IMG/VR virus record: IMGVR_UViG_3300025122_006142
Span: 1 to 34,564 of that record
Reading direction: 5' to 3' (one strand)
Length of the DNA stretch: 34,564 nucleotides
From: a virus
This document shows, piece after piece, positions 5,249 to 31,511 of the stretch. The position numbers and the translations under genes were made by a program. How positions within the stretch are numbered: the stretch's first letter is position 1; every line of letters begins with the position of its first letter. The notes beneath the pieces are model-generated. The model was not told the origin of the DNA. It saw nothing but the letters and a program-made list of their open reading frames with translations, and searched no databases.

Positions 5249-5252
5249 ACCT

Positions 5253-12264: not shown

Positions 12265-13326
12265 TTAACCAAGAGTAAGTATATCATGCTGGATCATTTT
12301 GTCAACTAATTTTTCAAAAGATACTTCGCGCACCCATCCTAATTCTTTTTCAATGCGTGTTGGGTCGCCTAGTAGCAGTTCAATTTCAGCTGGCCTAAAA
12401 TACTTAGGATTAACATAAACTAACGGTATCTCTGGCTGATGTTTTAAGGTATAGGCTAGAGCGGGTTTATCTCCAGTAAAAAAATTAGTATTCTCTACAA
12501 CATCAAAAGGGATTCCTGCGGCTGTCAAAGAAAGCTCTACAAACTCTCTAATAGAATGAGTTTCGCCAGAAGCAACAACATAATCGCACGGCTCTTTTTG
12601 TTGCATCATAAGCCATACCGCTTTCACAAAATCTTCAGAATCCCCCCAGTCTCTTTTTGATTCAAGATTTCCTAAGTGAAGGGGCGCGGGGGTACGCTTT
12701 TCGCGGAGCGCCTTGCTCATCAGCGCTACTGACTTTGTAATTTTGCGGGTTACAAATTCCTCTCCTCTCCGCGTGCCCTCGTGATTAAAAAGCCAACCTT
12801 GCACGGCAAATAAATTGTAACTATCACGGTAAACTTTCACGATATGTCTTGCCGCAGCTTTAGCTGCTCCATAAGGGGAACGAGGGCGCAATGGGTGCTT
12901 CTCGTCTTGCGGGCTATATTCCACATCACCAAACTCCTCTGAACTTCCTGCATTATAGAATTTAGTACGAGGCGATTCGGTGCGAATAGCCTCTAATATA
13001 TGAAGAACACCTGTAGCGGTGCAGTTCCATGTAGCCACAGGGATGTCCCAGCTTGCCCCTACGAAACTTTGAGCGGCAAAATTAATAAAATATTCAGGCT
13101 GGTATTTTTTAACTACATGGTTGACTGATGTGGGGTCAGTCAAATCAAAATACACTTTTTCGAAACGTGGGTTATCTATATGGTGAATAATATTTTCATC
13201 GTTAGGAACTGATAATCGCCTAAAACATCCCACAATGTGATAATCCGTTTCTTTTAAAAGAAAGTCCACCATGTGGCTACCGTCTTGTCCTGTGACGCCC
13301 GTTAAAACTATGATATTTTTATTCAT
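12265..13326 (-). CDS. gmd: GDP-mannose 4,6-dehydratase (353 aa)
   Basis: Converts GDP-D-mannose to GDP-4-keto-6-deoxymannose using bound NADP, the first step to GDP-fucose, GDP-rhamnose or GDP-perosamine. The dinucleotide motif T-G-V-T-G-Q-D-G is at 9-16. The catalytic set is S128-S-E-E131 with Y152-G-A-A-K156. Family landmarks include N-F-A-A-Q-S-F-V-G, W-L-F-N-H-E and R-R-G-E-E-F-V-T-R-K, plus Y-F-R-P-A-E near the C-terminus. Length equals cellular Gmd. It is the last gene of the sugar cassette, overlapping the fucose synthase gene by eight bases, which shows that the pathway goes to fucose. GDP-mannose must come from the host. Confidence 0.93.
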   Translation of the reverse strand: MNKNIIVLTGVTGQDGSHMVDFLLKETDYHIVGCFRRLSVPNDENIIHHIDNPRFEKVYFDLTDPTSVNHVVKKYQPEYFINFAAQSFVGASWDIPVATWNCTATGVLHILEAIRTESPRTKFYNAGSSEEFGDVEYSPQDEKHPLRPRSPYGAAKAAARHIVKVYRDSYNLFAVQGWLFNHEGTRRGEEFVTRKITKSVALMSKALREKRTPAPLHLGNLESKRDWGDSEDFVKAVWLMMQQKEPCDYVVASGETHSIREFVELSLTAAGIPFDVVENTNFFTGDKPALAYTLKHQPEIPLVYVNPKYFRPAEIELLLGDPTRIEKELGWVREVSFEKLVDKMIQHDILTLG

Positions 13327-14317
13327 CTTCTTGAATCAGATCTAGGGTTTGGAGGTACCACTCATATGTCTTTTGTATCCCCTCTTCAAGGGTTGTTTTT
13401 GCTTCGAAGCCGAACTCTTCTTTTGCTTTTGTTGTGTCCAAGCAGCGCCGCGGCTGACCGTTAGGTTTGCTCGCGTCCCACACTATTTTCCCTTCAAATT
13501 TGGTTAATTTTTGAATTATTGTGGCAAGCTCTTTAATTGTAGTTTCCTTACTTGCTCCAATGTTAATGGGGTCGGGTTTATCATAGGACCGAAGAGCTTT
13601 CCAGATAGCTTCGGCGCAATCACCTGCGTATAAAAACTCTCTAGAAGCAGAGCCGTCACCCCACAGCGTAACGGAAGAGGCTTGAGCCTCTTTGGCTTCG
13701 TGAAACTTTCGAAGCATCGCAGGGATAACGTGAGAATCTTCTAAACTAAAATGGTCGTATTCACCGTACATATTAACAGGGATCAAATGGATAAAATTAG
13801 ACCCGTACTGATTAGCAAACGCCTGACACCCTATTAGTAAATTCTTCTTCGCTAAACCATAAGGAGCGTTGGTTTCCTCTGGGTACCCATCCCAAAGGTT
13901 TTCCTCTTTAAAAGGAACCGGGGTATTTTTAGGGTAAGAACATACGGTTCCAATCGTGACAAGTTTCTTAAGTTTTAGCTCGTGGGCTACCTTCAACACG
14001 TTCAAGCTCATTTGGGCGTTGTGCAAAAAGAAATCTGCAGGTTTGCGTTGATTAATGCCTATGCCTCCGCACTCTGCCGCAAGGTGAATGATGATATCTA
14101 TTTTGTTGGAGTGACAATAGTGGTAAAGGTCTCTGTATTCAAGACAGTTTAATTGGTGTCTATGTGGCGTAAAGAGATTATACAATTTTGTGTCATCATA
14201 ACCGTTAATTTCGAAGTGTTGCTGTACAAGGTTGTTGACAACGCTTGTTTCGTCAGCCATTTTGTCTCCCAAGTGGGTTCCTAGAAAGCCGTTTGCGCCT
14301 GTTAATAGAATGTTCAT
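13319..14317 (-). CDS. fcl: GDP-L-fucose synthase (332 aa)
   Basis: Epimerase-reductase turning the Gmd product into GDP-L-fucose with NADPH. Short-chain dehydrogenase fold: T-G-A-N-G-F-L-G at 6-13, H-L-A-A-E-C-G-G-I at 78-86 matching the Fcl H-x-A-A-x-V-G-G-I pattern, S-Y-P after C126, and Y153-xxx-K157. The substrate-binding region S-R-E-F-L-Y-A-G-D and N-I-G-x-x-K-E-T-T-I-K-E-L are also typical, as is N-G-Q-P-R-R near the C-terminus. The start overlaps the stop of the HddA-like kinase as ATGA. Supplies the donor for the GT10 fucosyltransferase at 22690-23565. Confidence 0.92.
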   Translation of the reverse strand: MNILLTGANGFLGTHLGDKMADETSVVNNLVQQHFEINGYDDTKLYNLFTPHRHQLNCLEYRDLYHYCHSNKIDIIIHLAAECGGIGINQRKPADFFLHNAQMSLNVLKVAHELKLKKLVTIGTVCSYPKNTPVPFKEENLWDGYPEETNAPYGLAKKNLLIGCQAFANQYGSNFIHLIPVNMYGEYDHFSLEDSHVIPAMLRKFHEAKEAQASSVTLWGDGSASREFLYAGDCAEAIWKALRSYDKPDPINIGASKETTIKELATIIQKLTKFEGKIVWDASKPNGQPRRCLDTTKAKEEFGFEAKTTLEEGIQKTYEWYLQTLDLIQEDE

Positions 14318-15324
14318 AAATGTAAAAGCTGTCTTTGGTTTGAAGATGTAAAATCTCCCAAGATTGTTGACCCGTGAAAGTCTGGCAAATAGTTTAAGCG
14401 AATAATATTATGCGACGCCATGTAGTTTTCAATTTCTCTGTGTTTTTTATTTGCATAAACCATTAAAAACCCTCCCCCTCCGGCCCCTATTATTTTTCCT
14501 CCAAGTATACCAAATTTAGCTTTTAGTTCAGCATACATAGTATCAGCCAAAGAGAAGGACATGTCGGGGCTAAATTCTTTTTTTAGTTTCCAATAATCGT
14601 CAAGCATTAGGCCGTAGTCGTCGAAGTTTTTACTTTCTAAAATATCTAAAGTTTTATATCCTAGCTCTTTTACTTTGAGCATGCGCTCTTCGTTGCCTTG
14701 GTTGGGTGCGTCAAGCTTAGACAGAATGTTAGAGGCGTTTCTTTTCTTTTTTAAAAAATAAATATGTAAGTTATTAAGAAGCTCTAAAAGGGACCCATAT
14801 TCAAGACGCACATTTTTAACGTTTACTTTTCCTGTGGGGGCTATATCTAAAACCCTTAACCCTCCGAAAGCTGAAATGTATTGATCTTGCTTTCCTACCG
14901 GATAGCCTAAACGGTTTATCTCTATCTCACATGCCTCTTCAGCTAATTCTTGAGGAGAGCATTGCTCTTTTTTATAATGACGTATGGCATTCAAAAGAGC
15001 TACTAGATAGCTTCCGGAAGACCCTAGCCCTGTGTTGCCCGGGGCATCCCCACAGCTGCTAATTTCAATAGATCTCTGTAAGCCGTGGGCTTTTAAGGCC
15101 TCACGAGCCCTTTCGTGTTCTAGGTCCTCTAAAGAATCAACAACCTCCGTTCTTAAATAACGAACCTTAATCTGGGGCTCTAGATAGTCGGGCTTTAGGG
15201 TTAGGTAGATATGCTTGTCAATAGCCATCGACACTACAAACCCTCCATGCTTTTGGTAAAAAGAAGGTCGATCTGTACCTCCCCCTCCTAGTGTAATTCT
15301 GTATGGGGAGCGAGACAGAATCAT
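14314..15324 (-). CDS. GHMP sugar kinase, HddA-like heptose 7-phosphate kinase (336 aa)
   Basis: Phosphorylates the anomeric carbon of a sugar phosphate, most likely D-glycero-D-manno-heptose 7-phosphate. The start I-L-S-R-S-P-Y-R-I-T-L-G-G-G-G-T-D is the signature of HddA and related kinases. The GHMP ATP-binding motif is A-P-G-N-T-G-L-G-S-S-G-S at 94-105. The C-terminal G-A-G-G-G-G-F-L motif follows. Its neighbours transaldolase, GmhA-like isomerase and the HAD-nucleotidyltransferase fusion complete a GDP-heptose-like pathway. It overlaps the transaldolase stop by ATGA. Fucokinase-type activity is possible but less likely given these partners. Confidence 0.82.
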   Translation of the reverse strand: MILSRSPYRITLGGGGTDRPSFYQKHGGFVVSMAIDKHIYLTLKPDYLEPQIKVRYLRTEVVDSLEDLEHERAREALKAHGLQRSIEISSCGDAPGNTGLGSSGSYLVALLNAIRHYKKEQCSPQELAEEACEIEINRLGYPVGKQDQYISAFGGLRVLDIAPTGKVNVKNVRLEYGSLLELLNNLHIYFLKKKRNASNILSKLDAPNQGNEERMLKVKELGYKTLDILESKNFDDYGLMLDDYWKLKKEFSPDMSFSLADTMYAELKAKFGILGGKIIGAGGGGFLMVYANKKHREIENYMASHNIIRLNYLPDFHGSTILGDFTSSNQRQLLHL

Positions 15325-16022
15325 AAGGAATAGTTTGCTTCCTGCGCGTCCTTATAAAAATCCTGCACAGTCTCTAGGGAGTATTCTTCTAGGTTTTTAT
15401 TTTGTAGGTGGAGTTTTTTTAATAGACCTGAGGGAACTGTAATGATATTGCACCCCAGTTCGTCTGCTTGATAAATACTGTATGTTTCGCGACAGCTTGC
15501 CCATAAAAGTTCAGAAACAGGATTCAGTTGGAGTATACCTTTACAGGCTGTCATCGTAGAAGCGGGGTTAATTCCTGTGTCGGCAATTCGGCCAGCAAAA
15601 ACAGATACCACTGATGGGGTGGTGAGGCTTAAATAATTAGATAGATCCTTCACTTGTCTTACTGTCATAACAGCTGTTACGTTGACTTTAACCCCTTTCT
15701 CTCCTAAGTTTTTGACGATAGGTCCGGTGGATTCCCCTTTGGTATTGCTGATGGGAATCTTAGCATAGAAATTTTCTGAAACAGAAGAAATGATTGTCGC
15801 CTGCCTCTCCATTTCCTCGAGCTCATCCGCTATAACCTCCACAGAAACGTGTTTTTCTTTAGGTATTTTTTCTGCAAGGGTGTGCGCAAATTCCATATAG
15901 TCTTTTACTTCAGCTTTTCTCATTAAGCTAGGGTTTGTGGTGAAACCGCTAATCTGATCGGAGTTCTTATGTTGAAGAATTTCCTCGAGGTTAGCCCCGT
16001 CTAAAAATGTTTTAATTTTCAT
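15321..16022 (-). CDS. Transaldolase of the small TalC / fructose-6-phosphate aldolase type (233 aa)
   Basis: TIM-barrel aldolase forming a Schiff base on K88 (F-Y-A-K-I-P-I), with D8 (T-F-L-D-G-A-N) and T-T-N-P-S at 28-32 at the usual places. Transaldolase moves a dihydroxyacetone unit between sugar phosphates. TalC homologues are known as metabolic genes in cyanophages, but here it sits between the GmhA-like isomerase and HddA-like kinase, so its likely job is to make or balance sedoheptulose 7-phosphate, the substrate of GmhA (inference). The ATG overlaps the end of the isomerase by 11 bases. Transaldolase and fructose-6-phosphate aldolase activity cannot be told apart from this sequence alone. 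Confidence 0.83.
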   Translation of the reverse strand: MKIKTFLDGANLEEILQHKNSDQISGFTTNPSLMRKAEVKDYMEFAHTLAEKIPKEKHVSVEVIADELEEMERQATIISSVSENFYAKIPISNTKGESTGPIVKNLGEKGVKVNVTAVMTVRQVKDLSNYLSLTTPSVVSVFAGRIADTGINPASTMTACKGILQLNPVSELLWASCRETYSIYQADELGCNIITVPSGLLKKLHLQNKNLEEYSLETVQDFYKDAQEANYSL

Positions 16023-16584
16023 AATCGTAATTTACTAATAAATGCCATATCACGCCTTGCCATTCTTCTGCGTGAGGAGTAACAAGGGTATCGTCTACCA
16101 CGGGAATCATGACACAAGCGTCAGAATAAGCTTTGGAGTACCCTCCTCCTCTGCTTACTATAGAATAGACTTTTGAACCTTGCTGTTTAGCGTACCGAAT
16201 TGCCCGAACAAGATTTTGGGATGTAGTGTCACTCCCTCCCCCTACCGACAGAACTAGTAAAGCGTCGTTGCTATTTAGGTAAGACCCTTGAAGCCAGTTG
16301 GCAAAACAATCCTCCCAACTCTCATCGTTAATCCGAGCGGTCAGTTCTGCTACGTTATCTGTAGGAGCGTAGGCTTCTATTCCTAAAATTTTCCTAAAAT
16401 CGTTTACGCAATGAGAGGCGTTGGCAGCACTCCCTCCTACCCCTAAAATAAAGAGGCGACCTTTTTGTTTTTTTAAATCTTTAAGCCCGTCGATTAGGGC
16501 TCCCACGTCATCGACGTCTACTGTATCGCAAATCTCTTTAACTTGACTTAAGTATTTGAGGATGTAATTTTTTGTTTTATCCAC
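16012..16584 (-). CDS. SIS-domain isomerase, GmhA-like phosphoheptose isomerase (190 aa)
   Basis: Expected to convert sedoheptulose 7-phosphate to D-glycero-D-manno-heptose 7-phosphate. The SIS sugar-phosphate site is L-G-V-G-G-S-A-A-N-A-S-H at 47-58, followed by V-N-D-F-R-K as in GmhA, and S-V-G-G-G-S-D-T-T-S near residue 113-122 binds the phosphate. Length (190) equals GmhA. H58 and a late H (E-E-W-Q-G-V-I-W-H) could act in catalysis. The start codon is GTG inside the last 12 codons of the epimerase gene upstream, with a weak AGAAGA before it. Lies between epimerase and transaldolase in the heptose block. Confidence 0.83.
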   Translation of the reverse strand: MDKTKNYILKYLSQVKEICDTVDVDDVGALIDGLKDLKKQKGRLFILGVGGSAANASHCVNDFRKILGIEAYAPTDNVAELTARINDESWEDCFANWLQGSYLNSNDALLVLSVGGGSDTTSQNLVRAIRYAKQQGSKVYSIVSRGGGYSKAYSDACVMIPVVDDTLVTPHAEEWQGVIWHLLVNYDYEN

Positions 16585-17462
16585 TCTTCTATTCTGACTG
16601 TAGGTTCATATCCTAATAGGCGCTTAGCTTTTGATATGTCCGCCAAGGTGTTTTTAGACTCGCCGGGTCGCGCCGGAAGAAAAACGTGCTCATCGCTAAT
16701 CATATTCGCAAGCTCTAAAACCGAACAATTGGAACCGCTGCCTACGTTAAAAACCTCCCCAAAAATCTGTTCGTTATCGCTTTGCATAGCTAGCATATTT
16801 GCTTGCACAACATCCTCGACGTGCGTAAAGTCTCTTCTCTGAGAGCCATCGCCAACAACAGTTAAGGCTTCCTTGTTGCGTTTCTGCTTAAGAAAAAGCC
16901 CCACGACGGGAGCATACAGCCCTTTAGTTGGCTCTCGCTCCCCGTAGATATTAAAATAACGAAAAATAACGGTTTCAAGTCCCCATAAAGTATAATACAT
17001 TCGAGCTAAATCTTCAGCCGCAACCTTGGTTACAGCATAGGGGTTCAGACAGTCTCTTTCCATGTCTTCTCTCAGGGGGATTTTATTTTTTAAACCATAT
17101 CCTGAGGAAGTCGAAGAATACATAACCCGTTTTATTTTATGTGTTCGTGCGGCCTGTAATACGTTACAAGTCCCCACAAAGTTGGTAATACAGGCGTCTT
17201 GGGGCCTTTCAAGAGTGGGTTGGATTCTAGATTCGGCTCCCAAGTGAAAAACGTAATCGACATCTTGAAAGAGGGGTTCTATCGCGTCGTAATCAGTTAT
17301 TGAGGCCTTTGTATATTGAGCATTATTGTTATGAAAAAATTTATCATTTGACTCCGCACTTTCATTATCAATAACAACAATTTCATGCCCTACTGACACC
17401 AATTTGTCTACGATGTGAGATCCGATGAAGCCGCAGCCTCCTGTAACTAAAGATTTAACCAT
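16548..17462 (-). CDS. NAD-dependent sugar epimerase/dehydratase, GalE/WbpP-like (304 aa)
   Basis: Extended short-chain dehydrogenase acting on a nucleotide sugar. T-G-G-C-G-F-I-G-S-H at 7-16 binds NAD; S-S-T-S-S-G-Y-G plus Y-A-V-T-K (the Y-xxx-K pair) form the catalytic set; R-Y-F-N-I-Y-G-E-R and R-R-D-F-T-H-V-E-D-V are substrate-side motifs shared with UDP-hexose 4-epimerases; P-A-R-P-G-E is near the C-terminus. Substrate (UDP-, GDP- or ADP-sugar) cannot be decided; an ADP/GDP-heptose epimerase role is possible given the heptose genes beside it. It has its own candidate promoter six bases upstream, so the distal heptose/fucose genes may be expressed separately. Confidence 0.8.
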   Translation of the reverse strand: MVKSLVTGGCGFIGSHIVDKLVSVGHEIVVIDNESAESNDKFFHNNNAQYTKASITDYDAIEPLFQDVDYVFHLGAESRIQPTLERPQDACITNFVGTCNVLQAARTHKIKRVMYSSTSSGYGLKNKIPLREDMERDCLNPYAVTKVAAEDLARMYYTLWGLETVIFRYFNIYGEREPTKGLYAPVVGLFLKQKRNKEALTVVGDGSQRRDFTHVEDVVQANMLAMQSDNEQIFGEVFNVGSGSNCSVLELANMISDEHVFLPARPGESKNTLADISKAKRLLGYEPTVRIEEWIKQKITSSNT

Positions 17463-17468
17463 ACGCAG

Positions 17469-17496
17469 ATTATGTAACCAAAAGGCACTTTATCAA
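17469..17496 (-). promoter_or_regulatory. Internal promoter in the sugar cassette
   Basis: Minus strand TTGATA (17491-17496), a 16-base spacer and CATAAT (17469-17474); each hexamer matches the consensus at five of six positions. The -35 overlaps the stop codon of the HAD-nucleotidyltransferase gene. The -10 ends six bases before the ATG at 17462, so the transcript would start at the start codon. Confidence 0.6.
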
Positions 17497-18206
17497 GAAT
17501 TTTTTATTCGCTTAATGAGCTCTGTGCTTGACCAATTATGATCTCGTGAGTGATAGTAGATTTGAGAGCAATATTTTTGTCCTGTCATCCAGCCTCTTGC
17601 TTTGCAATCTGAACCCAAAATTCTTATGTCCGGTTTAATTTTTTTTAAAATATTATTTAAATCTTCTTCCGAGGAGTATTCGACGATTTCGTCAACATAT
17701 TTGCAGGCCTCAAGCTGCGTTCGCCTTTCTTTGGTTGTTTGTATGGGTTTATTTTTTTCAGGTCTGTCTAGGGTGGGGTTTGTTTGCAGGGCCGCGATTA
17801 AATAATCACAAATTCTTTTTGCGTCTTTCAGATAGAGGCAGTGTCCGGCATGTAGGAGGTCAAAGGTGCTGGCCGCAAAGCCTGTTATTTTGGAGTTGTT
17901 TTGTTTTCTCCAGTCGTGAGCGTTAATTGCTTTGTCATCTATGAAAAGATCAAAGTGGGGCTTCCCTTTATCTATAAGAGTGTGATAGTTGATGCCCCAT
18001 GATTTTAATTGAGCTACTGTAACCCCATGCCAATCTTTACCCGAAGTCCCTCCGCGTGCGGTAAAAATGGTAATCGTGTGCCCCTCCTTGTAGAGCTTGT
18101 TGATTTGATCTACGACAGGGGAATAGAGTTGAGCTAAAGAATAGTCGCGCGGCCCCGAAGACGAAGAATAACAAATGGTTTCATCTAAATCAAAACAATA
18201 TGTCAT
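17493..18206 (-). CDS. HAD phosphatase fused to a cytidylyltransferase-like nucleotidyltransferase (237 aa)
   Basis: Two enzymes in one chain. Residues 1-105 are a HAD phosphatase of the capsule-biosynthesis type: F5-D6-L-D8-E-T, T-A-R-G near 49-52, K82 in K-G-K-P, and the acidic pair D90-D91 in F-I-D-D-K-A. Residues 108-237 are a TagD/RfaE-C-like nucleotidyltransferase with F-D-L-L-H119-A-G-H122 and a later I-L-G-S-D. In a heptose pathway it could remove the 7-phosphate and then add the nucleotide, matching two successive steps (inference). I start at the ATG at 18206: the longer frame adds 30 residues inside the methyltransferase gene and breaks the typical HAD beginning. AAAGGA lies 13 bases upstream. 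Confidence 0.8.
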   Translation of the reverse strand: MTYCFDLDETICYSSSSGPRDYSLAQLYSPVVDQINKLYKEGHTITIFTARGGTSGKDWHGVTVAQLKSWGINYHTLIDKGKPHFDLFIDDKAINAHDWRKQNNSKITGFAASTFDLLHAGHCLYLKDAKRICDYLIAALQTNPTLDRPEKNKPIQTTKERRTQLEACKYVDEIVEYSSEEDLNNILKKIKPDIRILGSDCKARGWMTGQKYCSQIYYHSRDHNWSSTELIKRIKNS

Positions 18207-18888
18207 TTCTAAAAAACAATCCTTTCGAAGAAAAGTGATAAGGATAGGTCCAATCACTAACCGGTGACTGATCCACTGGACTTCGGGGGTCAACAAAATC
18301 TTCGTGGGTCTTCTGTCGTAATTTTAAAGTTAAATGCTCGTCACACATAAGTCCGTGTTGAGCCATCAACTCAATCCAATAATTTTCAGTATTTTCATTG
18401 ACGTGGTGGTGTCCGGTTTGGCCCGGAGACGCATAGGTTAGCGCTGTGTACTTACAACACTTGAACGTTTCTATAAAGTTCTCTACAAATTCTCCCCCAA
18501 CATGCTCCACAAATTCTGAGCTCCAAGCTAAGTCCCGGGGAGAATCTAATTTAAAAGGACCTTCGCAATAATCATGTACGGTAATCAAATCCGTATTTAA
18601 AGCAATTTCTTTTACTTTAACACTCCCCTCTACCCCTATAACATCAAGTCCCATATGATTTTTAAAAAAATCCAACGAATAACCAAACCCACACCCTATG
18701 TCTACAATACTTTTAACATTTAACAAATCAACGAGATAGTCCCACATAATAGGGTAGTGGGTAGCGGGGTCCCCCTCTACATTACAGCCCCCTAAATCAC
18801 CGTCGTTAAAAGATTTTTTAAATAAACAATTTGGATAGAGCTTTTTGGCTCTTTCTTCTATGACAGTGGTGCTTTCTTCTTTATACAT
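18190..18888 (-). CDS. Class I SAM-dependent methyltransferase (232 aa)
   Basis: Rossmann-fold methyltransferase, probably acting on a sugar or glycan. The SAM-binding motif I is I-V-D-I-G-C-G-F-G-Y-S at about 60-70, with the acidic end of strand 2 in V-I-G-V-E-G (about 80-85) and W-S-S-E-F-V-E-H at the motif IV position. The C-terminal part (H-H-H-V-N-E-N-T) is variable and may bind substrate. No membrane segment. It overlaps the HAD-nucleotidyltransferase by 17 bases and follows the FkbM-type methyltransferase after 20 bases, so it is part of the cassette's decorating enzymes. Target atom unknown. Confidence 0.75.
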   Translation of the reverse strand: MYKEESTTVIEERAKKLYPNCLFKKSFNDGDLGGCNVEGDPATHYPIMWDYLVDLLNVKSIVDIGCGFGYSLDFFKNHMGLDVIGVEGSVKVKEIALNTDLITVHDYCEGPFKLDSPRDLAWSSEFVEHVGGEFVENFIETFKCCKYTALTYASPGQTGHHHVNENTENYWIELMAQHGLMCDEHLTLKLRQKTHEDFVDPRSPVDQSPVSDWTYPYHFSSKGLFFRNDILF

Positions 18889-18908
18889 GGTTTCTTTGGG
18901 TTGATGGA

Positions 18909-19763
18909 TTATCCGGACAAATGCTGAGGAATAAAATGTGTTTCACGAGACGTGCGTGCATAGGGAACTTTAAGGCTCAAAGAGTTGTGGACCGCAACAA
19001 TGTTTTGATAACCGAAAATTTCTTGAAAAATAGGATGGTCTAGGAGGGGGAGGACACCTTGCTCTACCAACCGAAAAAACTGATAATCTTTAAGTTCTTT
19101 TCGAAAATCTCGCATAAACACCTTGCTTTCTATATTAGGATGGTTAAACTCGTATTGCACAACCTTTAACTTCCCTGCAGCTATGGTTTGGCGCGCTCCT
19201 TGGAGAACCCCTAGTTCGTGCCCTTCTACATCTATTTTGAGAAAATCAATTTGAGATAAATTATTCTCTCTAACAAAGTTATCTATTGTTTGCATCTTTA
19301 CGTCTATTTTAATGCTGTCCACACCATGCAGTTCGGTAATAACCGTTTCGTGAACAGACGCCATCTCGGACCCTTCAGGATAATCCACCCTTTCGAAAAG
19401 AGTGCATGGCTTCTCTTCTTCCCCTAAAGCTAACTCTAAGAAAATACCGTCGACCCCTCTTTGTTTTAAGCGTTCAAAGCTTTTTGGGTGAGGTTCGAAG
19501 CAATAAAGGGATGCGCGGGGAAACACAGAGCTGATCATTTCTGCATAACGTCCCTCGTTTGCTCCCACGTCAAAAATAATAGGAGTATCTTTTATTAAAT
19601 GCTTAAGGTTTCCTTCAGCAAAAAATTGCTCCCCACTCTTAATGTGCTGCAGTTCTTCTGGTGCGTCGCAGCCTAAGGTACAGTTAATACCCATCAGCTC
19701 TAAGCACTGACGATAAGTTGTGTATACCTCACCGAGAAAGATCGGGTCAAGGTGGGTATTCAT
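18909..19763 (-). CDS. FkbM-family methyltransferase (284 aa)
   Basis: SAM-dependent O-methyltransferase of the FkbM family, which methylates hydroxyls on sugars and polyketides. Motif I is I-I-F-D-V-G-A-N-E-G-R-Y-A, then L-Y-C-F-E-P-H-P-K-S-F at the end of strand 2 and the diagnostic I-D-F-L-K-I-D-V-E-G-H-E-L around residues 170-182. The C-terminus (V-V-Q-Y-E-F-N) is also family-like. About 50 residues before motif I may hold a substrate-binding lid. Its ATG overlaps the stop of the GT4 gene (ATGA). Capping of a glycan chain by methylation is one known role of such enzymes. Confidence 0.87.
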   Translation of the reverse strand: MNTHLDPIFLGEVYTTYRQCLELMGINCTLGCDAPEELQHIKSGEQFFAEGNLKHLIKDTPIIFDVGANEGRYAEMISSVFPRASLYCFEPHPKSFERLKQRGVDGIFLELALGEEEKPCTLFERVDYPEGSEMASVHETVITELHGVDSIKIDVKMQTIDNFVRENNLSQIDFLKIDVEGHELGVLQGARQTIAAGKLKVVQYEFNHPNIESKVFMRDFRKELKDYQFFRLVEQGVLPLLDHPIFQEIFGYQNIVAVHNSLSLKVPYARTSRETHFIPQHLSG

Positions 19764-20854: not shown

Positions 20855-21588
20855 CTTCTCTGTCCTTCGTCTAAAGTGGAATAATAGGTACCGTCTTTGG
20901 ACCCCTGTGTAACAAGAGGGGGGGTCCACCAATACACATTGAGGTCAAGTTTATAAAACTGGTAAGCCATTTCCCAATCACTTACGAGATTAAAAGGTAC
21001 GGCCCCTTGGTATACTTGGGTAGCAGCTTGAGGCTTAATAAGGTAAGCCTCCGCACAATTGGTGGCAGGGTGGGGCGCCTTAAAGATGCTAGGAGAACCC
21101 AGAGAATCCGAGGTAAAAACAGGCTGTTCCCCTTCAAGCTTGTGGTTAATGAACCATTCCCCACAGCCGGCCCCCATGAGAATAACATCCCAATCTTTTG
21201 GGGTCTTGCTTAAGAAAAAATTAAATGACTCGGCAAAATTATCCTCTAACAGTGCATCGTCTTCAAGAATTAACCCGTGATTGGGGCATTCCCTCCCTAC
21301 CTTCCCTATGGCTTCTATATGTTTAATAGTACAAGAGAGCTCTGCATTATTTAAGCGTCGATAAGTGTGAATGTTTGGGTCCCACAAGGGAGCAATTTTG
21401 TTATCGTGAGCCTCTTGTCTCGTATCGTAGTAGCCTGAAATAAGCTCCGAACTTAGGTTCTCCTTGTCAAATTCCTCTATATAAAAATGTTCATTATCAA
21501 GTGTACTCATCTGGGAGTCCATTTTTTCCTTGCGTTTTTTTAACGGCGTATAATGGATGATGAAAATTTTATCCGTGTTTAGTCTCAT
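20851..21588 (-). CDS. GT25 family glycosyltransferase (245 aa)
   Basis: Resembles the LPS galactosyltransferases of GT25. Begins with K-I-F-I-I-H-Y-T-P-L-K-K-R-K, the family's I-N-L-x-x-x-x-x-R start; N-N-A-E-L-S-C-T-I-K-H matches the G-E-I-G-C-xx-S-H region; L-I-L-E-D-D-A-L-L around residues 106-114 is the metal/nucleotide-binding E-D-D; A-Y-L-I-K-P and S-D-W-E complete the set. Such enzymes add galactose or a similar sugar to LPS. The gene's ATG overlaps the epimerase end by 20 bases and its stop overlaps the next gene by four. Confidence 0.83.
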   Translation of the reverse strand: MRLNTDKIFIIHYTPLKKRKEKMDSQMSTLDNEHFYIEEFDKENLSSELISGYYDTRQEAHDNKIAPLWDPNIHTYRRLNNAELSCTIKHIEAIGKVGRECPNHGLILEDDALLEDNFAESFNFFLSKTPKDWDVILMGAGCGEWFINHKLEGEQPVFTSDSLGSPSIFKAPHPATNCAEAYLIKPQAATQVYQGAVPFNLVSDWEMAYQFYKLDLNVYWWTPPLVTQGSKDGTYYSTLDEGQRR

Positions 21589-22693
21589 GGTGGTTTTTAA
21601 CGATGCTCTCTATAATTCTCTGCAGTGGGTACTTAATTTTCCAGTCGGGATAGTGAGATCTAAATTTTGAAAGATCCGATATGTACCACACATGATCCCC
21701 GCTGCGGTTTTGGGGCAATATAGAATAATTAGTATAAGAGGTACCTGCTATTTGGTTAGTATGGGTAATGGCCTCTAATACTGAAATAGAGTTTTGGCGC
21801 CCTCCTCCCACGTTGTAAACCTCCCCTTGGCGAGGGGACTGGTGGAAGTGCCAAAACATATCAATGAGGTCGTGCGAATCAATGTTATCTCGAACCTGTT
21901 TTCCTTTGTACCCAAAAACCTTATAAGGCTTGTTTTGCACAACGCATTTAATCAAATAAGCTAAAAATCCATGAAGCTCTACGCCCGAGTGATTGGGTCC
22001 AGTCAAACACCCTCCCCGAAAAATCCCAACATTCATTCCAAAATAACGCCCGTATTCTTGACACATAACATCAGCCGCCACCTTCGATGCTCCAAAAACA
22101 GAGTGCTTTGATTGGTCTATTGGCATTGTTTCGTCTATTCGTGCCACCGGAAGAATGATCGAGGAGGGGTAAGCGGGCTCAACGAAATAGCCTTGGTAGC
22201 GAGTGTCCTCCTCTTTGATAGTCAAATTTTTGTATCCTTTATCGCTTTCTTTTGTTTCGTAGGAACGATTAGGTCTGTCTCCATAAACTTTGTTGGTAGA
22301 CGTAAAAATGAAGGTGGCGTCTTTATTGTAGAGGCGAGTTAGCTCCAGTAAATTTAACGTACCTGTTGCGTTAATTGAAAAATCAGTCAAAGGTTCTTTG
22401 GCCGCCCAGTCGTGAGATGGTTGAGCGGCCGTGTGAATAATCAAATCAAAACAATTGTTTTTAAAAATCTCCTCTACCTTTTCATAGTCTCTTATGTCGA
22501 TATTAAAATGCTCGTATTGAGATGCCAGCTTTCCTTTGAGGGCTGTGAGGTTATCTTGATTAGACCCTTCGGCACCAAAAAAATAAGACCTCATATCATT
22601 GTCGATACCGTATATCTTATAACCTTTTTGATAAAAAAAGTAAGCAGCTTGGCTTCCTATTAAGCCAGAAGACCCTGTAATTAACGCTTTCAA
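21569..22693 (-). CDS. Nucleotide-sugar epimerase, CDP-paratose/tyvelose 2-epimerase-like (374 aa)
   Basis: Extended short-chain dehydrogenase close to RfbE-type epimerases. T-G-S-S-G-L-I-G-S at 6-14 binds NAD; I-D-N-D-M-R-S-Y-F-F-G-A-E-G-S is a family-specific loop; F-T-S-T-N-K-V-Y-G and the Y-xxx-K equivalent F-G-A-S-K (Tyr replaced by Phe in S-V-F-G-A-S-K) follow; V-Y-N-V-G-G-G-R-Q-N-S-I-S and H-V-W-Y-I-S-D match the C-terminal half. The Phe in the Y-xxx-K place is unusual and worth noting. The start codon is TTG, overlapping the fucosyltransferase stop as TTGA. No CDP-sugar genes are near, so the real substrate may differ. Confidence 0.78.
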   Translation of the reverse strand: MKALITGSSGLIGSQAAYFFYQKGYKIYGIDNDMRSYFFGAEGSNQDNLTALKGKLASQYEHFNIDIRDYEKVEEIFKNNCFDLIIHTAAQPSHDWAAKEPLTDFSINATGTLNLLELTRLYNKDATFIFTSTNKVYGDRPNRSYETKESDKGYKNLTIKEEDTRYQGYFVEPAYPSSIILPVARIDETMPIDQSKHSVFGASKVAADVMCQEYGRYFGMNVGIFRGGCLTGPNHSGVELHGFLAYLIKCVVQNKPYKVFGYKGKQVRDNIDSHDLIDMFWHFHQSPRQGEVYNVGGGRQNSISVLEAITHTNQIAGTSYTNYSILPQNRSGDHVWYISDLSKFRSHYPDWKIKYPLQRIIESIVKNHHETKHG

Positions 22694-23565
22694 AATTTGA
22701 ATAGCTCCTTGATTTTGGACTTTAAATTTTCTAGGTCCGAGCGTTGGGGGTTGACATGGAAAAGGGGTTCGTTAATTATTTTAGTATAAAGATTATCGTT
22801 TTGATCTATTTCAATTACATGTTTTACAAAATCATCCATTGATTCATAGTCATTCAAATTAAGAAAACTTTTGGGATTAAAATCTTCAGAAACTTTTTCG
22901 TCAGCGTAATACAAAGGAAGGGTTCCAGAACATTTGGCGTGAATCAGCTTTTCGGTATAATAACCTCCCGTGGGGGCTACTGAATTTTCAAAACAAATAG
23001 AAAACTTATAATGAGAAAATGTTTCATATTTTTTAGACTCCCCGTAAAACCAATTGCCAAAAGGCTTTCCAAAACACTGAACTTTTTTATAGGGACTCAG
23101 CGCCTCAACACAGTCCGCTCTGTTAGAAAATAAATTATTATTTACCAGAACACAAAACTCTGTTTTCGCGGTATCTATATATTCGTTTTGGTCTATCTTG
23201 TTTAAGGGTAAAATAAATTCAGGGTTAATGTATCCCTTCTTATTGTACCAATCAAATTGCAAAAACCACAAAGGTAATCTAATGTTTCTGCTGTTATAAT
23301 CCTCAAAGTCAAAAGAAAGCGAATATGTGCATTCGTCAAAATTAGGACGTTCGTTTTCTCCTGTATAAAATATTTTTATAATATTGTCTTTATTAAAGCG
23401 CCGATGCTCTTGGCCGTAAGGCCCAAAAAATAAAATGTCAGCGGCGTCGGGATCGGTAACAGTAATGTTTCCGTAAATATCTTCGAACAAATCTTTAAAA
23501 AAATTATTAGAAGGTTGAAAATCCAACCAAAAATCACAAAACGATATTTTTAATGAACTATCCAT
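22690..23565 (-). CDS. GT10 alpha-1,3/1,4-fucosyltransferase-like (291 aa)
   Basis: Transfers fucose from GDP-fucose to a glycan. Two family regions are clear: F-Y-T-G-E-N-E-R-P-N-F-D (66-77) followed by Y-S-L-S-F-D, and K-F-S-I-C-F-E-N-S (187-195) with G-Y-Y-T-E-K-L (201-207), where E193, N194, E205 and K206 are the donor-binding residues known in GT10. G-T-L-P-L-Y-Y-A-D follows. Length fits the Helicobacter-type catalytic domain without C-terminal heptad repeats. The donor is made by Gmd and Fcl at the distal end of the same cassette, which strongly supports the assignment. AGGT about eight bases before the ATG may serve as ribosome binding site. Confidence 0.88.
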   Translation of the reverse strand: MDSSLKISFCDFWLDFQPSNNFFKDLFEDIYGNITVTDPDAADILFFGPYGQEHRRFNKDNIIKIFYTGENERPNFDECTYSLSFDFEDYNSRNIRLPLWFLQFDWYNKKGYINPEFILPLNKIDQNEYIDTAKTEFCVLVNNNLFSNRADCVEALSPYKKVQCFGKPFGNWFYGESKKYETFSHYKFSICFENSVAPTGGYYTEKLIHAKCSGTLPLYYADEKVSEDFNPKSFLNLNDYESMDDFVKHVIEIDQNDNLYTKIINEPLFHVNPQRSDLENLKSKIKELFKF

Positions 23566-23574
23566 ATTTTTTAC

Positions 23575-24426
23575 CTAAAAAGAGTAATCAAACTCTTCGC
23601 AATCCGCTGCGAAAGCCTCCTCAACAGCTTTGCGAGCCCCCTCTGTGTAGTGTTTTGAATATTTTTTTTGACTTTTGTTTTTATTATTTTGATCGTGACT
23701 TAAGGGGAGGGGAGGAATACCCACGCGCTCTAAGACTTGATTAAAAGACTCGCTGAGGTTTTCGAATTTAATGAAGTGATTAATCAAGGAATAATGGTCT
23801 GCATCTTTATAGCTGATGCCTTGAGAAAAGCCTTCTTTCTCTGAATTCCACGAAGGATACTCAATAGCGTTCGCCTTGTAAGCTTTGTGTAGGTAGCTGA
23901 GCGTTTTTCGGACGTCTTTTTCTGTAAAGTTGTTTTCGGTTGCAAAGAATTGTCGTCTCCGCTCCCCAACTTCCCCGGCCGAAGGTGAATATTTGATACA
24001 TTCAGGGTCGCGGCAAGCCTGAAGAGCTTCGTCGTAAAAGCATTTTTTGGTGGTGCAATTTTTGAGGAAAACTGCCAGCACCCAATCCCAAGGGTTGCGT
24101 GTAACAGCCACACTGACATAGGAATCCAGTTCTTGTACGTTAAAAAACTCAAGTTGCGAAGCTTGTTCCCTAAAATAATAAGGGGAAATGTGTTTGTTAA
24201 CAATGAGCCCCTGCGGATTTTCTTCGATTTTGGCGACAAATCCTTCGTAATCTCTCGGAAGTCCAAAAGGACTAGGATCGTTCAGAAAATGCCTAAAATT
24301 TGGTTCATATTTATTTTTAATAAAAGGATCGTCGTGATAAGGCAATAGGGTTTTTTGAATGGACGATGTCCCGCAGTTTCCGACGGGGCAAAAAAAGGCT
24401 AATTTGTAACGGTGAGAAATAATCAT
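23575..24426 (-). CDS. Sulfotransferase-family protein (283 aa)
   Basis: Predicted to move sulfate from PAPS to a glycan hydroxyl. The start I-I-S-H-R-Y-K-L-A-F-F-C-P-V-G-N-C-G-T-S-S-I-Q matches the PAPS 5'-phosphate loop (K-x-G-x-T-S type; here N-C-G-T-S-S), and V-T-R-N-P-W-D-W (about residues 109-116) is the 3'-phosphate-binding R-N-P motif. The end Y-S-K-H-Y-T-E-G-A-R ... E-E-F-D-Y-S-F is typical of carbohydrate sulfotransferases of the Sulfotransfer_2 type. Cytosolic; the host must provide PAPS. Sits between a methyltransferase and the fucosyltransferase. Confidence 0.8.
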   Translation of the reverse strand: MIISHRYKLAFFCPVGNCGTSSIQKTLLPYHDDPFIKNKYEPNFRHFLNDPSPFGLPRDYEGFVAKIEENPQGLIVNKHISPYYFREQASQLEFFNVQELDSYVSVAVTRNPWDWVLAVFLKNCTTKKCFYDEALQACRDPECIKYSPSAGEVGERRRQFFATENNFTEKDVRKTLSYLHKAYKANAIEYPSWNSEKEGFSQGISYKDADHYSLINHFIKFENLSESFNQVLERVGIPPLPLSHDQNNKNKSQKKYSKHYTEGARKAVEEAFAADCEEFDYSF

Positions 24427-24432
24427 AACTAG

Positions 24433-25149
24433 TTAAAGGGCTTTCATAAAAGTGTGTTCAGAGGGAGAATCATAGAGCTGAGGGGAGGCGTTTTTTTTAA
24501 TAGTACGCAATAAGATTTCTATTAAAGTAATAAAGTCCTTCTCATCCTTGTAGTGATTCATATCATCAATTAATATAGAATGATCTTCAAAATCAAGGTT
24601 GCAGGCGGCAATAGCCGCCAGCTCTTTAGGGAGATAGCTGCCCATTTTTTCTCCAATATGGAGGCCCCCGGACCAATGGGCGTCTAGCCATAAAAAAAAG
24701 GGTTCTCTGATTTTTTTAAAAAGCTTGGGCAACTCTTCACAAGAGGACCCTGTAACAATTTCTACCGGGTCATCTTTAAAAGCAAACGAGGCTCGCTCAG
24801 ACAACATTGGATTGAGCTCTATAGAATAAACCTTGGTAAATCCCGCCTCAAGGGCAGCTGAAACCCCGTCCCCGTTGCCTGTTCCTGTTTCTATGAATAT
24901 ATTTTGATTGTCTTTTTTAAACTTAACCAAATCTTGAGAAAAGGCATTGCGCCAAGCTTCCCTATTCTTCGCGACGTTTTCTCGTGTCAACTCAAATCTT
25001 ATGTTATTATGAACAAACTCTCCGTGTTCGCGAGCGTAATGAAAGAGGTGTTTGGCCTCTTCGTTGCTACATTGAGCTATTTCTTTTATTTTTTCTATAA
25101 CTTCTTTAGCTCCTAATGGCTCAGAGGAATTTGGAGGCTCGGATTTCAT
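24433..25149 (-). CDS. Putative SAM-dependent methyltransferase (238 aa)
   Basis: Likely class I methyltransferase. Motif I appears as I-F-I-E-T-G-T-G-N-G-D-G-V-S, then K-V-Y-S-I-E-L-N at the end of strand 2 where the acidic residue binds SAM ribose; F-F-L-W-L-D-A-H-W-S-G-G is like the W-L-D-A-H-Y motif seen in sugar O-methyltransferases, and I-L-I-D-D-M supplies a metal-binding D-D. The N-terminal 60 residues are helical and may bind acceptor. The ATG overlaps the glycosyltransferase stop by ATGA. Sugar methylation is inferred from the neighbours, not proven. Confidence 0.68.
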   Translation of the reverse strand: MKSEPPNSSEPLGAKEVIEKIKEIAQCSNEEAKHLFHYAREHGEFVHNNIRFELTRENVAKNREAWRNAFSQDLVKFKKDNQNIFIETGTGNGDGVSAALEAGFTKVYSIELNPMLSERASFAFKDDPVEIVTGSSCEELPKLFKKIREPFFLWLDAHWSGGLHIGEKMGSYLPKELAAIAACNLDFEDHSILIDDMNHYKDEKDFITLIEILLRTIKKNASPQLYDSPSEHTFMKAL

Positions 25150-25901
25150 TTTTTCACATTAAAATAGACTGGATCCCATGTTTGTCCTCCAGCGAAATGG
25201 CGTACTATAGTATCTTCTTTTTTGCTTTTGACTATATTATATTTTTGGAGAGCTTGGCTGACGGGGTCGGCTGCCTCTTCAGCCAGTAACGTGGTATCCC
25301 ATTCGGGCCCTCGTATTTCAACATGTTTATCCAAATCCTCTAAACTGTAACAAAGATCAGGGGAAACTGTAGAATGAAAACCGTAGTTAGGCATGTCAAA
25401 AAAGGAAACCCAACTATGAGGGAGGATTCCACTTAATGTGTACCACGCCGCCTGTTCTCGAAAGTTTTGCCAGTGATCGGTGTCTTTTAGTTTTTGATAA
25501 AGGTCTTCACTGAGAATGCGGTTGATTAGGTCGATGCTCCACTCGTTAACTGTAATGCTGTAATTACCCATACAGTGTGTATTGCCGTTATCTATAGCGT
25601 AAGAAAAGCTTTTTTCTGTCTGATAGGGCTTATCGTCTTTGACAATAACCATGTCAGCATCAAAATGAGTCACAATATCCCCCTCTTTAACGCGCCCACT
25701 TTTAATCCACTCTTGAACAATGGTAAATTTCCACCATGTTGGATTATCTCGAAGCAGCTCTAGGGGCTCCTCGTTCCCTATAACCACATACTCAAACCCG
25801 TGCTTGTCGCAATACTTTTGGTTGATAGGGCTAATATGGTTGTCAAAAATTTCTTGTTTTTCGTTTTTGTATCTAGCTATTACTAAAAAATATTTATTCA
25901 T
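25146..25901 (-). CDS. GT34/GMA12-like glycosyltransferase (251 aa)
   Basis: GT-A-fold glycosyltransferase similar in layout to the galactosyl/mannosyl GMA12/MNN10 group. Y-C-D-K-H-G-F-E-Y-V (about 30-39) matches the Y-C-xx-H-G-Y-x-Y start, W-W-K-F-T-I-V-Q the W-x-K helix, and H-F-D-A-D-M-V-I (about 79-86) holds the D-x-D metal site. R-E-Q-A-A-W-Y-T and V-R-H-F-A-G-G-Q near the C-terminus are also shared. The 48 bases before the ATG have a TATACA five bases upstream of the start but no convincing -35. Cytosolic. Confidence 0.77.
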   Translation of the reverse strand: MNKYFLVIARYKNEKQEIFDNHISPINQKYCDKHGFEYVVIGNEEPLELLRDNPTWWKFTIVQEWIKSGRVKEGDIVTHFDADMVIVKDDKPYQTEKSFSYAIDNGNTHCMGNYSITVNEWSIDLINRILSEDLYQKLKDTDHWQNFREQAAWYTLSGILPHSWVSFFDMPNYGFHSTVSPDLCYSLEDLDKHVEIRGPEWDTTLLAEEAADPVSQALQKYNIVKSKKEDTIVRHFAGGQTWDPVYFNVKK

Positions 25902-26738: not shown

Positions 26739-27571
26739 GGATTGAATGGCTCTAGTCTTTCAATTTCATAAAAAACTAAATCGTCTCCTTTTTTTTCTCT
26801 TTTACTGAAGATCTCTTTTACTGATTGTTTGAATGCTTGTTGGTCGAAAGCATGATTATTGTCCCTAAAATAATGAAAATGAAAATTTATTAAAGGGTTA
26901 TTCAACATTTTTAAGTCTTCGCCTTTTAAATTAATAGAATCCCATCTTGTTTGAGCGTTAGGCCCTAGAAATTTCCACCATCCAACATTGTAGTTAATGG
27001 GGAGCGTTATGGTTGTGTACAATTCTGTTGTTACTTCAAGTGGTTTTTGTTCATAGTAAAGCCCCAGTTGCTTATGCCGTAGGAATAAATCCTCCCATGT
27101 TGCTAGAAATGCAGGGTTAGAAATTAAAACAAAGCCACAGTTATAATAGCCAACTGTTTTTTCGTCTGCGAATCCATCTGAATAGTGCGGACTAACTGCT
27201 GCGTCTACTAATCCCTTGTCGATCAACTCTAAGATTTGACTCTCCATAGGATTAAAAAAGATATGGTCCACATCGCACCAAAAAATAAAATTAGAATCTT
27301 TAAAAGCTTCTTTTGCGACAGTGAACTTTGCTTTAATGATCTCAATAAAATCAGCCTGCTGTTGGGGTGACTGCGAGACATGGTCTGCGTTTTCTGTTTT
27401 TATCAACTTAAAACACTTAACATCCTTGAAATTTTCATGAAGGTAGTCATAACAAAAATCATCAACAGCCAAGTAAAATTCCACAAAGTGATGCTGTTCA
27501 ATAGTTTTTTTCATTAAAAGAAAATCTTTGAGGCAGCTTTTAGTAACGGCTGATACGGTGCTTAGTTTCAT
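26735..27571 (-). CDS. Nucleotide-diphospho-sugar transferase, GT-A type (278 aa)
   Basis: Predicted glycosyltransferase. N-F-I-F-W-C-D-V-D-H-I-F-F (about 92-104) contains the D-x-D metal site in the form used by GT77/GT8-like enzymes, and V-G-Y-Y-N-C-G-F-V-L-I-S with a later G-W-W-K-F-L and N-F-H-F-H-Y-F match the remaining landmarks (acceptor and catalytic loops). No signal or membrane segment. The ATG overlaps the GT2 gene stop by ATGA and its own stop overlaps the next gene by GTGA. Sugar specificity cannot be read. Confidence 0.7.
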   Translation of the reverse strand: MKLSTVSAVTKSCLKDFLLMKKTIEQHHFVEFYLAVDDFCYDYLHENFKDVKCFKLIKTENADHVSQSPQQQADFIEIIKAKFTVAKEAFKDSNFIFWCDVDHIFFNPMESQILELIDKGLVDAAVSPHYSDGFADEKTVGYYNCGFVLISNPAFLATWEDLFLRHKQLGLYYEQKPLEVTTELYTTITLPINYNVGWWKFLGPNAQTRWDSINLKGEDLKMLNNPLINFHFHYFRDNNHAFDQQAFKQSVKEIFSKREKKGDDLVFYEIERLEPFNP

Positions 27572-28326
27572 GGTGATTGTTTTATTTCGTGGGAAGATTT
27601 GTAGTCAGGTTCGTATTTTCTTCTCATTTCATTAACTTCGTTGACCATTTCCTTGAGGGTGGCGGGGTCACTCGACCTTCCCGTTGGATTATGATAGTAA
27701 ATGCCCACTATATTATCAATTTTTTTCATTTTAGATCCTGCTTTGGCGGCTTTGAGCCATAAATCGGCATCTGAGGCTGTTTTATATTCTTCATTAAAAT
27801 AACCAAAGCGATCATGGATAGTTCTACGCCACATAGGCATACAGTGCGGATTGTTATTTCTCAGAAGGTCTGTCCAATCGTGGGTTTCGTTGCAAATATA
27901 CAACTCCTTAGATTGAAGAACACTCCAATCTTCGTTAGGGGTGGTACTAACAATAGTATCTCCGTAAACCAAATCAATATCAGGGTTTAAAACCAAAGAA
28001 TCTCTCATGACCTCCAAAGACCATGGTGATTTCCTGTCATCAATATTCCAATTGGTTAATAAATCGCTCTTTGTATGCGTGATGCAAACGTTCCATGCGG
28101 GATAGAGCCCCGGGTCTTTTTCTAGCCTTAGGTAGGTGATATTGGGATATTTGGCATAGCTAGTTATCACTTCCGCTTCATTATCAGGGGAAGCGCAATC
28201 CAACATAAAAAAATTCACCTCTTTAAAAATGGTTTGGCACAGCATGTCTTCCATATACCCTTCAACAAACTCCCCTCCCTTAAATATTGGGCAGTAGCAA
28301 GTTACGCTAGGATATTTGCTTGACAT
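27568..28326 (-). CDS. GT2 family glycosyltransferase, first gene of the sugar cassette (252 aa)
   Basis: GT-A inverting glycosyltransferase of GT2. The start S-V-T-C-Y-C-P-I-F-K-G-G-E-F is the family's V-T-V-x-x-P-x-Y-N-x region; F-F-M-L-D-C-A-S-P-D-N matches the V-D-x-x-S-x-D-x-T strand; N-W-N-I-D-D (about 92-97) is the metal-binding D-D; T-A-S-D-A-D-L-W-L-K contains the catalytic-side E/D-D-x-x-L-W motif. Upstream of the ATG there is TAAAAT seven bases away but no good -35 on this strand, so the promoter of the cassette remains uncertain. Cytosolic enzyme. Confidence 0.82.
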   Translation of the reverse strand: MSSKYPSVTCYCPIFKGGEFVEGYMEDMLCQTIFKEVNFFMLDCASPDNEAEVITSYAKYPNITYLRLEKDPGLYPAWNVCITHTKSDLLTNWNIDDRKSPWSLEVMRDSLVLNPDIDLVYGDTIVSTTPNEDWSVLQSKELYICNETHDWTDLLRNNNPHCMPMWRRTIHDRFGYFNEEYKTASDADLWLKAAKAGSKMKKIDNIVGIYYHNPTGRSSDPATLKEMVNEVNEMRRKYEPDYKSSHEIKQSP

Positions 28327-31510: not shown

Positions 31511-31511
31511 A

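Follow-up and report, generated by a model that had tools for sequence, protein, structure and literature searches.

A soluble glycan gene block with an exchangeable interior in an uncultured marine phage lineage

What would a phage do with enough genes to make, assemble and decorate an entire glycan, and to what would it attach the product? The question is raised by the IMG/VR contig IMGVR_UViG_3300025122_006142, the whole of which (34,564 bases) was analysed and is referred to here as the window. It comes from an uncultured marine bacterial virus and carries a glycan gene island at positions 12265-28326. It is very probable that the island encodes a functional module of soluble enzymes. The fuller reading, in which the phage assembles a glycan without membrane proteins, from a block whose modular middle can be exchanged, and with a virion protein as the most likely acceptor, we consider evenly poised.

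A contiguous island with an exchangeable interior

The island is a single minus-strand run of 19 open reading frames of 190-390 amino acids, not the 17 genes counted in an earlier note made on this DNA from its letters alone. That note described the genes as translationally chained; 13 of the 18 junctions overlap and the remaining five are gaps of 6-48 bp. The run is flanked by UvsX, DnaB, ribonucleotide reductase (RNR), dUTPase and sigma-like genes, and relatives found through UvsX have a glycan block at the equivalent site, with replication genes on one side and the dut-kinase-sigma genes on the other. A contiguous, phage-borne cluster of nucleotide-sugar and glycosyltransferase (GT) genes is thereby confirmed as real, far above chance. 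The genes and the interior cassette are as follows.

12265..13326, minus: gmd, GDP-mannose 4,6-dehydratase-like (PF16363 7.6e-105; TIGR01472 341 bits, cut-off 415; YGAAK motif)
13319..14317, minus: fcl/WcaG-like GDP-fucose synthase (NF047922 1e-81, 275 bits against a cut-off of 500; YGLAK motif)
14314..15324, minus: HddA-like GHMP kinase, heptose 7-phosphate kinase type (NF049969 1.4e-29, under cut-off; PDB 3k85 2.2e-27; GLGSSG motif)
15321..16022, minus: transaldolase (talC) of the TIGR02134 type (292.9 bits, over the cut-off of 281.95; candidate Schiff-base Lys in YAKIPIS)
16012..16584, minus: GmhA-like SIS isomerase (PF13580 5.2e-09; TIGR00441 6.7e-13, under cut-off)
16548..17462, minus: NDP-sugar (nucleoside diphosphate sugar) epimerase 1, a GalE/HldD-like extended short-chain dehydrogenase/reductase (SDR) (PF16363 5.8e-58; PDB 4zrm 4e-50)
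17493..18230, minus, exact start uncertain: HAD phosphatase and nucleotidyltransferase fusion (HAD-NT), GmhB-like plus HldE-C/CTP_transf-like (PF01467 6e-15, PF08645; rfaE_dom_II 3.7e-20; phrog_7878, phrog_1238)
18190..18888, minus: methyltransferase MT1, weak (PF08241 and PF13489 under cut-off; orthologues in G015, G016 and G019)
18909..19763, minus: FkbM-type O-methyltransferase (PF05050 1.5e-24; TIGR01444 over cut-off)
19760..20932, minus: GT4 glycosyltransferase (PF00534 2.2e-10; translation probably begins downstream of the TTG given in the gene list)
20851..21588, minus: GT25 glycosyltransferase (PF01755 2.1e-12)
21569..22693, minus: NDP-sugar epimerase 2, nearest to CDP-tyvelose/paratose 2-epimerase (PDB 9rl0 1.1e-33, 1orr 1.3e-33)
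22690..23565, minus: GT10 fucosyltransferase (PF18025 2.3e-19, PF00852 1.2e-17)
23575..24426, minus: sulfotransferase of the 3'-phosphoadenosine-5'-phosphosulfate (PAPS) type (PF03567 9.9e-05, 23.0 bits, cut-off 22; phrog_3347 0.0018)
24433..25149, minus: putative methyltransferase MT2 (only an S-adenosylmethionine-binding-like stretch, ETGTGNGDG)
25146..25901, minus: GTx1, putative GT-A transferase, conserved island-end gene (invariant DAD motif; 60-86% to four other phage islands)
25950..26738, minus: GTx2, putative transferase (41-75% to five other phage islands)
26735..27571, minus: GTx3, putative GT-A transferase (invariant DxD; 40-81% to other phage islands)
27568..28326, minus: GT2 glycosyltransferase, first gene of the run (PF00535 1e-07)
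14320..25148, minus: exchangeable interior cassette, hddA to MT2 (10.8 kb without nucleotide homology to the relative G003, flanked by 75-80% homology on both sides)

The cassette is delimited by comparison with G003, a near relative (UvsX 93%, RNR 94%), to which the window is homologous at the nucleotide level over 87-14319 and 25149-34472 with minor breaks. The homology ends at the fcl start codon and at the MT2/GTx1 junction, in both cases no more than 3 bp from gene ends. In G003 the interior is of ~10.3 kb and encodes a PfkB kinase, a mannose-phosphate isomerase/NTP-transferase fusion, a shikimate-dehydrogenase-like protein and a weakly matching GT25, and its counterparts to window genes are only distant (HAD-NT 54%, fucosyltransferase 32%, kinase 24%). 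The window's version is present in G004, where hddA, talC, SIS and epimerase 1 run contiguously to the contig end, and the kinase, transaldolase and isomerase are all found on G015 and G016. The last two are remote phages, whose non-island genes are only ~30-40% identical to those of the window. By reciprocal best hits they nevertheless have 13 of the 19 island genes in common with it, against nine of 19 for the near relative G003. Swapping of the cassette between phage lineages is the best explanation of this distribution. A swapped middle between kept ends resembles the 'serotype' genes of bacterial surface sugars.

The kept ends are themselves informative. The order GT2-GTx3-GTx2-GTx1 recurs in G003, G006, G015, G016, G019 and G020, sometimes with one or two genes intervening, and this recurrence suggests that the four transferases build a shared, acceptor-proximal part of the glycan. 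At the other end, gmd is conserved in G002-G008 and G010 and is the sole island gene present in all own-lineage relatives whose contig covers the site. Island gene order is also kept in the distant phages G015, G016 and G019, at ~35-67% identity.

The shared island genes are under purifying selection and are kept functional. For those in common with G003 or G004 the ratio of nonsynonymous to synonymous differences per site (pN/pS, Nei-Gojobori) is 0.11-0.31, with 0.39 for the 54% identical HAD-NT, and for other genes it is 0.06-0.23; synonymous sites are near saturation, so that the true dN/dS lies below these figures. The comparison covers the island genes with a close homologue in G003 or G004, which leaves out FkbM, GT4, GT25, epimerase 2, the fucosyltransferase, the sulfotransferase and MT2.

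The membrane components of a conventional polysaccharide pathway were not found. By hydropathy all island enzymes are soluble, as had been proposed, the highest 19-residue mean being 1.45. Not one of the 906 proteins on 16 related, partly redundant phage contigs (698 kb in total) has four or more transmembrane (TM) segments (Kyte-Doolittle, window of 19 residues, threshold 1.7), and when applied to 19 cellular loci (5-21 kb each) with an HddA-like kinase, this count turns up one or more such proteins in 12. Profiles for Wzx (PF01943), Bac_transf (PF02397) and Wzy_C (PF04932) match nothing on 17 phage records and are positive in 13, 9 and 9 of 14 control genomes, so the flippase, polymerase and initiating PNPT/PHPT enzyme of a Wzx/Wzy O-antigen or capsule locus were not detected. 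The absence of a flippase, polymerase and ligase asserted in the earlier note therefore stands and extends beyond the window to the 16 contigs. That note had named flippase or ligase genes adjoining the window as what would speak against it, and a search for them found none in the sequenced parts.

Predicted sugars and transferases

The likely product of gmd and fcl is GDP-L-fucose, as previously claimed; it is no more than likely because both enzymes, despite strong family matches, score under their NCBIfam equivalog cut-offs. The isomerase, 7-phosphate kinase, phosphatase and nucleotidyltransferase of an NDP-heptose pathway are all in the island. Curated equivalog cut-offs are not reached by these enzymes (HddA 104 of 600 bits, GmhA 49 of 209, rfaE_dom_II 72 of 181), which are thus relatives of the curated families with heptose as a substrate predicted from sequence, and the nucleotide on the heptose is uncertain. 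Sedoheptulose-7-phosphate, the substrate of GmhA, is a transaldolase product, and the island transaldolase, overlooked in the earlier reading, would supply it to the heptose block. In the open-licence literature we found no description of a phage transaldolase serving heptose supply. A cyanophage-type talC was considered and rejected, the island gene being at most 32% identical to cyanophage-like records and 45% identical, as a TIGR02134-type enzyme, to a record labelled Staphylococcus phage.

Cellular counterparts of this arrangement exist. Among the 19 cellular loci found with the kinase alignment, a transaldolase lies in the same stretch in five bacterial or archaeal ones (L118-L122), four of which (L119-L122) also have the SIS isomerase. 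Like the phage block, the bacterial O-antigen or exopolysaccharide (EPS) loci L119 and L120 cluster talC, SIS and hddA with SDR epimerases; unlike it, they have an NTP_transferase, together with UDP-sugar dehydrogenases alongside the heptose genes, where the phage block has an HldE-like nucleotidyltransferase, and L119 additionally has Bac_transf (the initiating sugar transferase) and Wzz, whereas the phage block is without membrane parts. From the clustering of talC, GmhA and HddA it is predicted that heptose glycans of bacteria, archaea and phages draw on a dedicated source of sedoheptulose-7-phosphate. In epimerase 2, the position aligned with the catalytic Tyr of YxxxK is occupied by Phe200 (FGASK), which may mean either a different chemistry or an inactive enzyme.

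Six glycosyltransferases had been claimed and seven were found, four by Pfam and three, GTx1-3, by conservation among phage islands and position, with invariant DxD motifs in GTx1 and GTx3. Pfam matches none of the last three, nor does PHROG at a significant score; profile searches of PDB sequences with GTx1 and GTx3 gave no match, and neither did tblastn of GTx3 against 50,697 phage records; they are putative glycosyltransferases on these grounds. GTx2, we presume, resembles the C-terminal region of exostosin/GT47. The three methyltransferases claimed fared unequally: FkbM is solid, MT1 is proposed from sub-threshold Pfam matches, and MT2, without a family match in Pfam or PHROG, from its motif. 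The claimed sulfotransferase passes the Pfam cut-off, barely, and has plausible PAPS-binding motifs, CGTSS and RNPWDW. By eye, a sigma-70-like consensus promoter (TTGACA-N17-TAAAAT, plus strand, 28320-28348) overlaps the GT2 start codon in the 28-bp divergent gap upstream of the run.

Acceptor and competing readings

Virus-encoded soluble glycosyltransferases and nucleotide-sugar enzymes, the combination that characterizes autonomous viral glycosylation, are both present in the island. For all substrates, the order of addition and the acceptor we infer the following scheme. Gmd and Fcl would convert GDP-mannose to GDP-L-fucose; the transaldolase would provide sedoheptulose-7-phosphate, from which the SIS isomerase, HddA-like kinase and HAD-NT would make a nucleotide-heptose; and the two SDR epimerases would yield further sugars. 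The conserved end transferases GT2, GTx3, GTx2 and GTx1 would start the chain, the interior transferases GT10, GT25 and GT4 would lengthen it, and the methyltransferases and sulfotransferase would cap it. The glycan would then be put on a virion protein in the host cytosol, on the model of the capsid of the chlorovirus PBCV-1.

PBCV-1 builds its capsid glycan with its own GMD/GMER and mostly soluble glycosyltransferases (PMC4691112, PMC9614988). It is like the window lineage in having a GDP-mannose dehydratase and GDP-fucose synthase, mostly soluble cytosolic transferases, methyl capping and multi-domain transferases, and unlike it in being a eukaryotic algal virus with a proven capsid-protein acceptor, whereas the window is known from genes alone; PBCV-1 is therefore an analogue of the mode of action, and no homology is claimed. 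In mycobacteriophages, phage glycosyltransferases are reported to glycosylate capsid and tail-tube proteins, which is the mode proposed here, although a couple of transferases (Maravista) are described there in place of a large nucleotide-sugar factory (PMC12619734). A phage virion protein is slightly favoured as the acceptor, if tentatively. If the glycan does sit on the virion, the phages would have a serotype system of their own, with a bearing on adsorption, superinfection and receptor choice. Possible, but doubtful, is the most specific version, an O-antigen-like system for virions. In it, a lytic tailed phage lineage would rely wholly on soluble enzymes of its own to make an elaborate fucose/heptose glycan bearing sulfate and methyl groups, would place this glycan on the virion in the host cytosol, and would switch 'serotype' as interior cassettes pass between phage lineages.

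The lack of membrane genes narrows the acceptor to two testable candidates, and the second, a host lipid carrier, is quite possible. The phage sugars and transferases would act on lipid-linked lipopolysaccharide (LPS) or capsule intermediates of the host, which would itself flip and ligate them, so that superinfection or grazing is blocked. Several observations weigh against a virion acceptor and toward this remodelling of the host surface. The enzyme families are those of LPS/EPS biosynthesis (GT25 in the island; GT9 and LicD on the conspecific contig G009), the heptose cassette occurs in the EPS-type locus L119 beside Bac_transf and Wzz, and for marine phages an altered host surface is the customary interpretation, proposed for the cyanophage and pelagimyophage clusters (PMC2984593, PMC7029224). 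The stretches checked in P-SSM2 and SynMITS9220M01 are also without a multi-TM protein, so that this trait is not peculiar to the present phage; the lipid carrier, flippase and ligase could be borrowed from the host, and the missing membrane genes are then no proof of a protein acceptor. Capsid and terminase genes of the lineage are on none of the contigs recovered: the related records are fragments with no terminase seen, the structural module lies outside the sampled sequence, and the window's tail-type protein, used as a query, found one viral relative only and did not lead to the capsid region. On the other side, at least seven transferases, together with a second glycan region, point to the building of a complete chain and not to the editing of an existing one, surface rebuilding competes with the lytic cycle, and the 698 kb of contigs encode no membrane component.

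Large LPS-like clusters are already known from cyanophages, and the earlier note, in crediting phages with one or two sugar genes as a frequent load, understates a precedent of at least 20 such genes (PMC3037559, PMC2984593), with 24 in P-SSM2 (PMC2984593). The T4-like cyanophages P-SSM2, S-SSM7, S-SM2 and SynMITS9220M01 have, like the window, large blocks of sugar-synthesis, glycosyltransferase and methyltransferase genes. In SynMITS9220M01 a D,D-heptose kinase, a phosphoheptose isomerase, a HAD-NT fusion (41.6% identical to that of the island over 97%) and an epimerase annotated as ADP-heptose epimerase stand in a row, without talC. The window differs from the cyanophage clusters in its lineage (DnaE-type polymerase and lambda-like tail genes in relatives), in the transaldolase of its heptose block, in its sulfotransferase and in its constant ends with a swapped middle. 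The hypervariable regions of SAR11 pelagimyophages are likewise variable, GT-rich regions of marine phages with LPS-like genes, but they are described around tail-fibre genes (PMC7029224), whereas the window's block is a 19-gene run with nucleotide-metabolism genes on one side and replication genes on the other. A megablast search with the island found no match among the 50,697 phage records. Novel in this work are the lineage, a precise cassette exchange between constant ends, the sharing across lineages, the test for selection, the tested lack of membrane components and a heptose block fed by a transaldolase.

Whatever the acceptor, the heptose assignment itself might be wrong, which we regard as unlikely. 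The HAD-NT would then make a CDP-polyol or similar compound, the kinase would act on another sugar and the transaldolase would be central-metabolic. The nucleotidyltransferase domain of the HAD-NT does resemble ethanolamine-phosphate and glycerol-3-phosphate cytidylyltransferases too, and G003 and G005, which retain the HAD-NT, lack talC and SIS and have a GHMP kinase that is no more than distantly related. Opposed to this are the joint occurrence of talC, SIS and the hddA-like kinase in the window, G004, G015 and G016 and in the stretches of the cellular loci L119-L122, and the gene order of SynMITS9220M01.

DNA, also named as an acceptor in the earlier note, is very improbable; the note's proposal of cytosolic assembly by soluble enzymes is supported. 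Sugars on modified phage bases would protect against restriction, T4-type phages glucosylate their DNA, and the island adjoins nucleotide-metabolism genes (RNR, dUTPase, deoxynucleoside monophosphate kinase). DNA is disfavoured because a ThyA-type base hydroxymethylase (PF00303), on which a T4-type glucosylation would depend, is absent from 19 fragmentary records and positive in nine of 14 controls; sulfated, methylated and fucosylated chains would also be unusual as DNA glycans, and protection from restriction needs no serotype-like exchange of the middle. Non-functional cargo for headful packaging, raised for cyanophage LPS clusters in the still debated alternative 'functional or simply stuffer DNA' (PMC3037559), is hardly conceivable here, given 19 of 19 open frames with overlapping starts and stops, low pN/pS in the shared genes, gene order kept in distant phages and an exact swap, all of which argue for function.

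The phage lineage and glycan genes elsewhere

Phage replication and nucleotide genes on the window encode UvsX, DnaB, primase, dUTPase, the monophosphate kinase, a sigma-like factor and a class II RNR. Close cultured relatives were not found: UvsX has one phage match only, a weak one of 25%, and the DnaE-type polymerase of the relative G002 reaches ~29% at best. Relative G008 has lambda-like tail genes (tail assembly protein, central tail fibre J, minor tail proteins), because of which a long-tailed, siphovirus-like phage is likely. On these three counts the phage does not fall within the T4-like cyanophages. Two contigs are conspecific, G001 (99.8%) and G009 (98.4% over 87-8066).

Glycan genes also lie outside the island, where the earlier note had missed a deacetylase and formyltransferase pair (3696-5320) and a further transferase.

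3696..4361, minus: formyltransferase, likely a sugar N-formyltransferase (PF00551 2.8e-15; PDB 1zgh, with ArnA at a lower score)
4358..5320, minus: polysaccharide deacetylase-like (PF01522 3.4e-10)
30377..31510, plus: further GT (phrog_2170), always near the sigma-like gene and conserved in relatives covering the site, including G015 and G016

The pair lies between DnaB and primase and, among the relatives compared, only in its own species (G001, G009); a homologue of the formyltransferase (47%) is inside the glycan island of G019. The second glycan region of G009, at ~23.4-37 kb (L098 3410-16955), encodes a GT9, a 1211-aa GT4+PIG-L protein, an Anp1-type GT, a LicD+cytidylyltransferase protein, a C-methyltransferase, two sulfotransferases and a PfkB kinase. 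Its counterpart in G002 (L083 4466-9070) has a 1534-aa protein with two GT4-like regions and PIG-L deacetylase and Anp1 domains, equivalent to the 1211-aa and 257-aa proteins of G009, as well as a carbamoyltransferase and an aminotransferase.

Among the remaining genes, a stand-alone PHP-domain gene (789-1532) corresponds to the N-terminal part of bacterial DnaE, and the DnaE-type polymerase of the relatives is separate, ~860 aa long and further on. The class II (B12-type) RNR (10293-12230) is also in G001-G004 and G011 and was undetected in G005-G010, and G015 has a different large-subunit RNR. An Hsp20-like small heat-shock protein was recognized by eye at 32222-32596 (79% in G003). The UvsX fragment at the start of the G009 contig (L097 3-587) is 88% identical to the window, the rest of G009 being 98-100%, which points to recombination or a chimeric contig end. 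Finally, a 711-aa protein of G003 (L085 2-2137) with three Laminin_G_3/ConA-like domains adjoins the tail-type gene beside the island and is possibly a sugar-binding adhesin.

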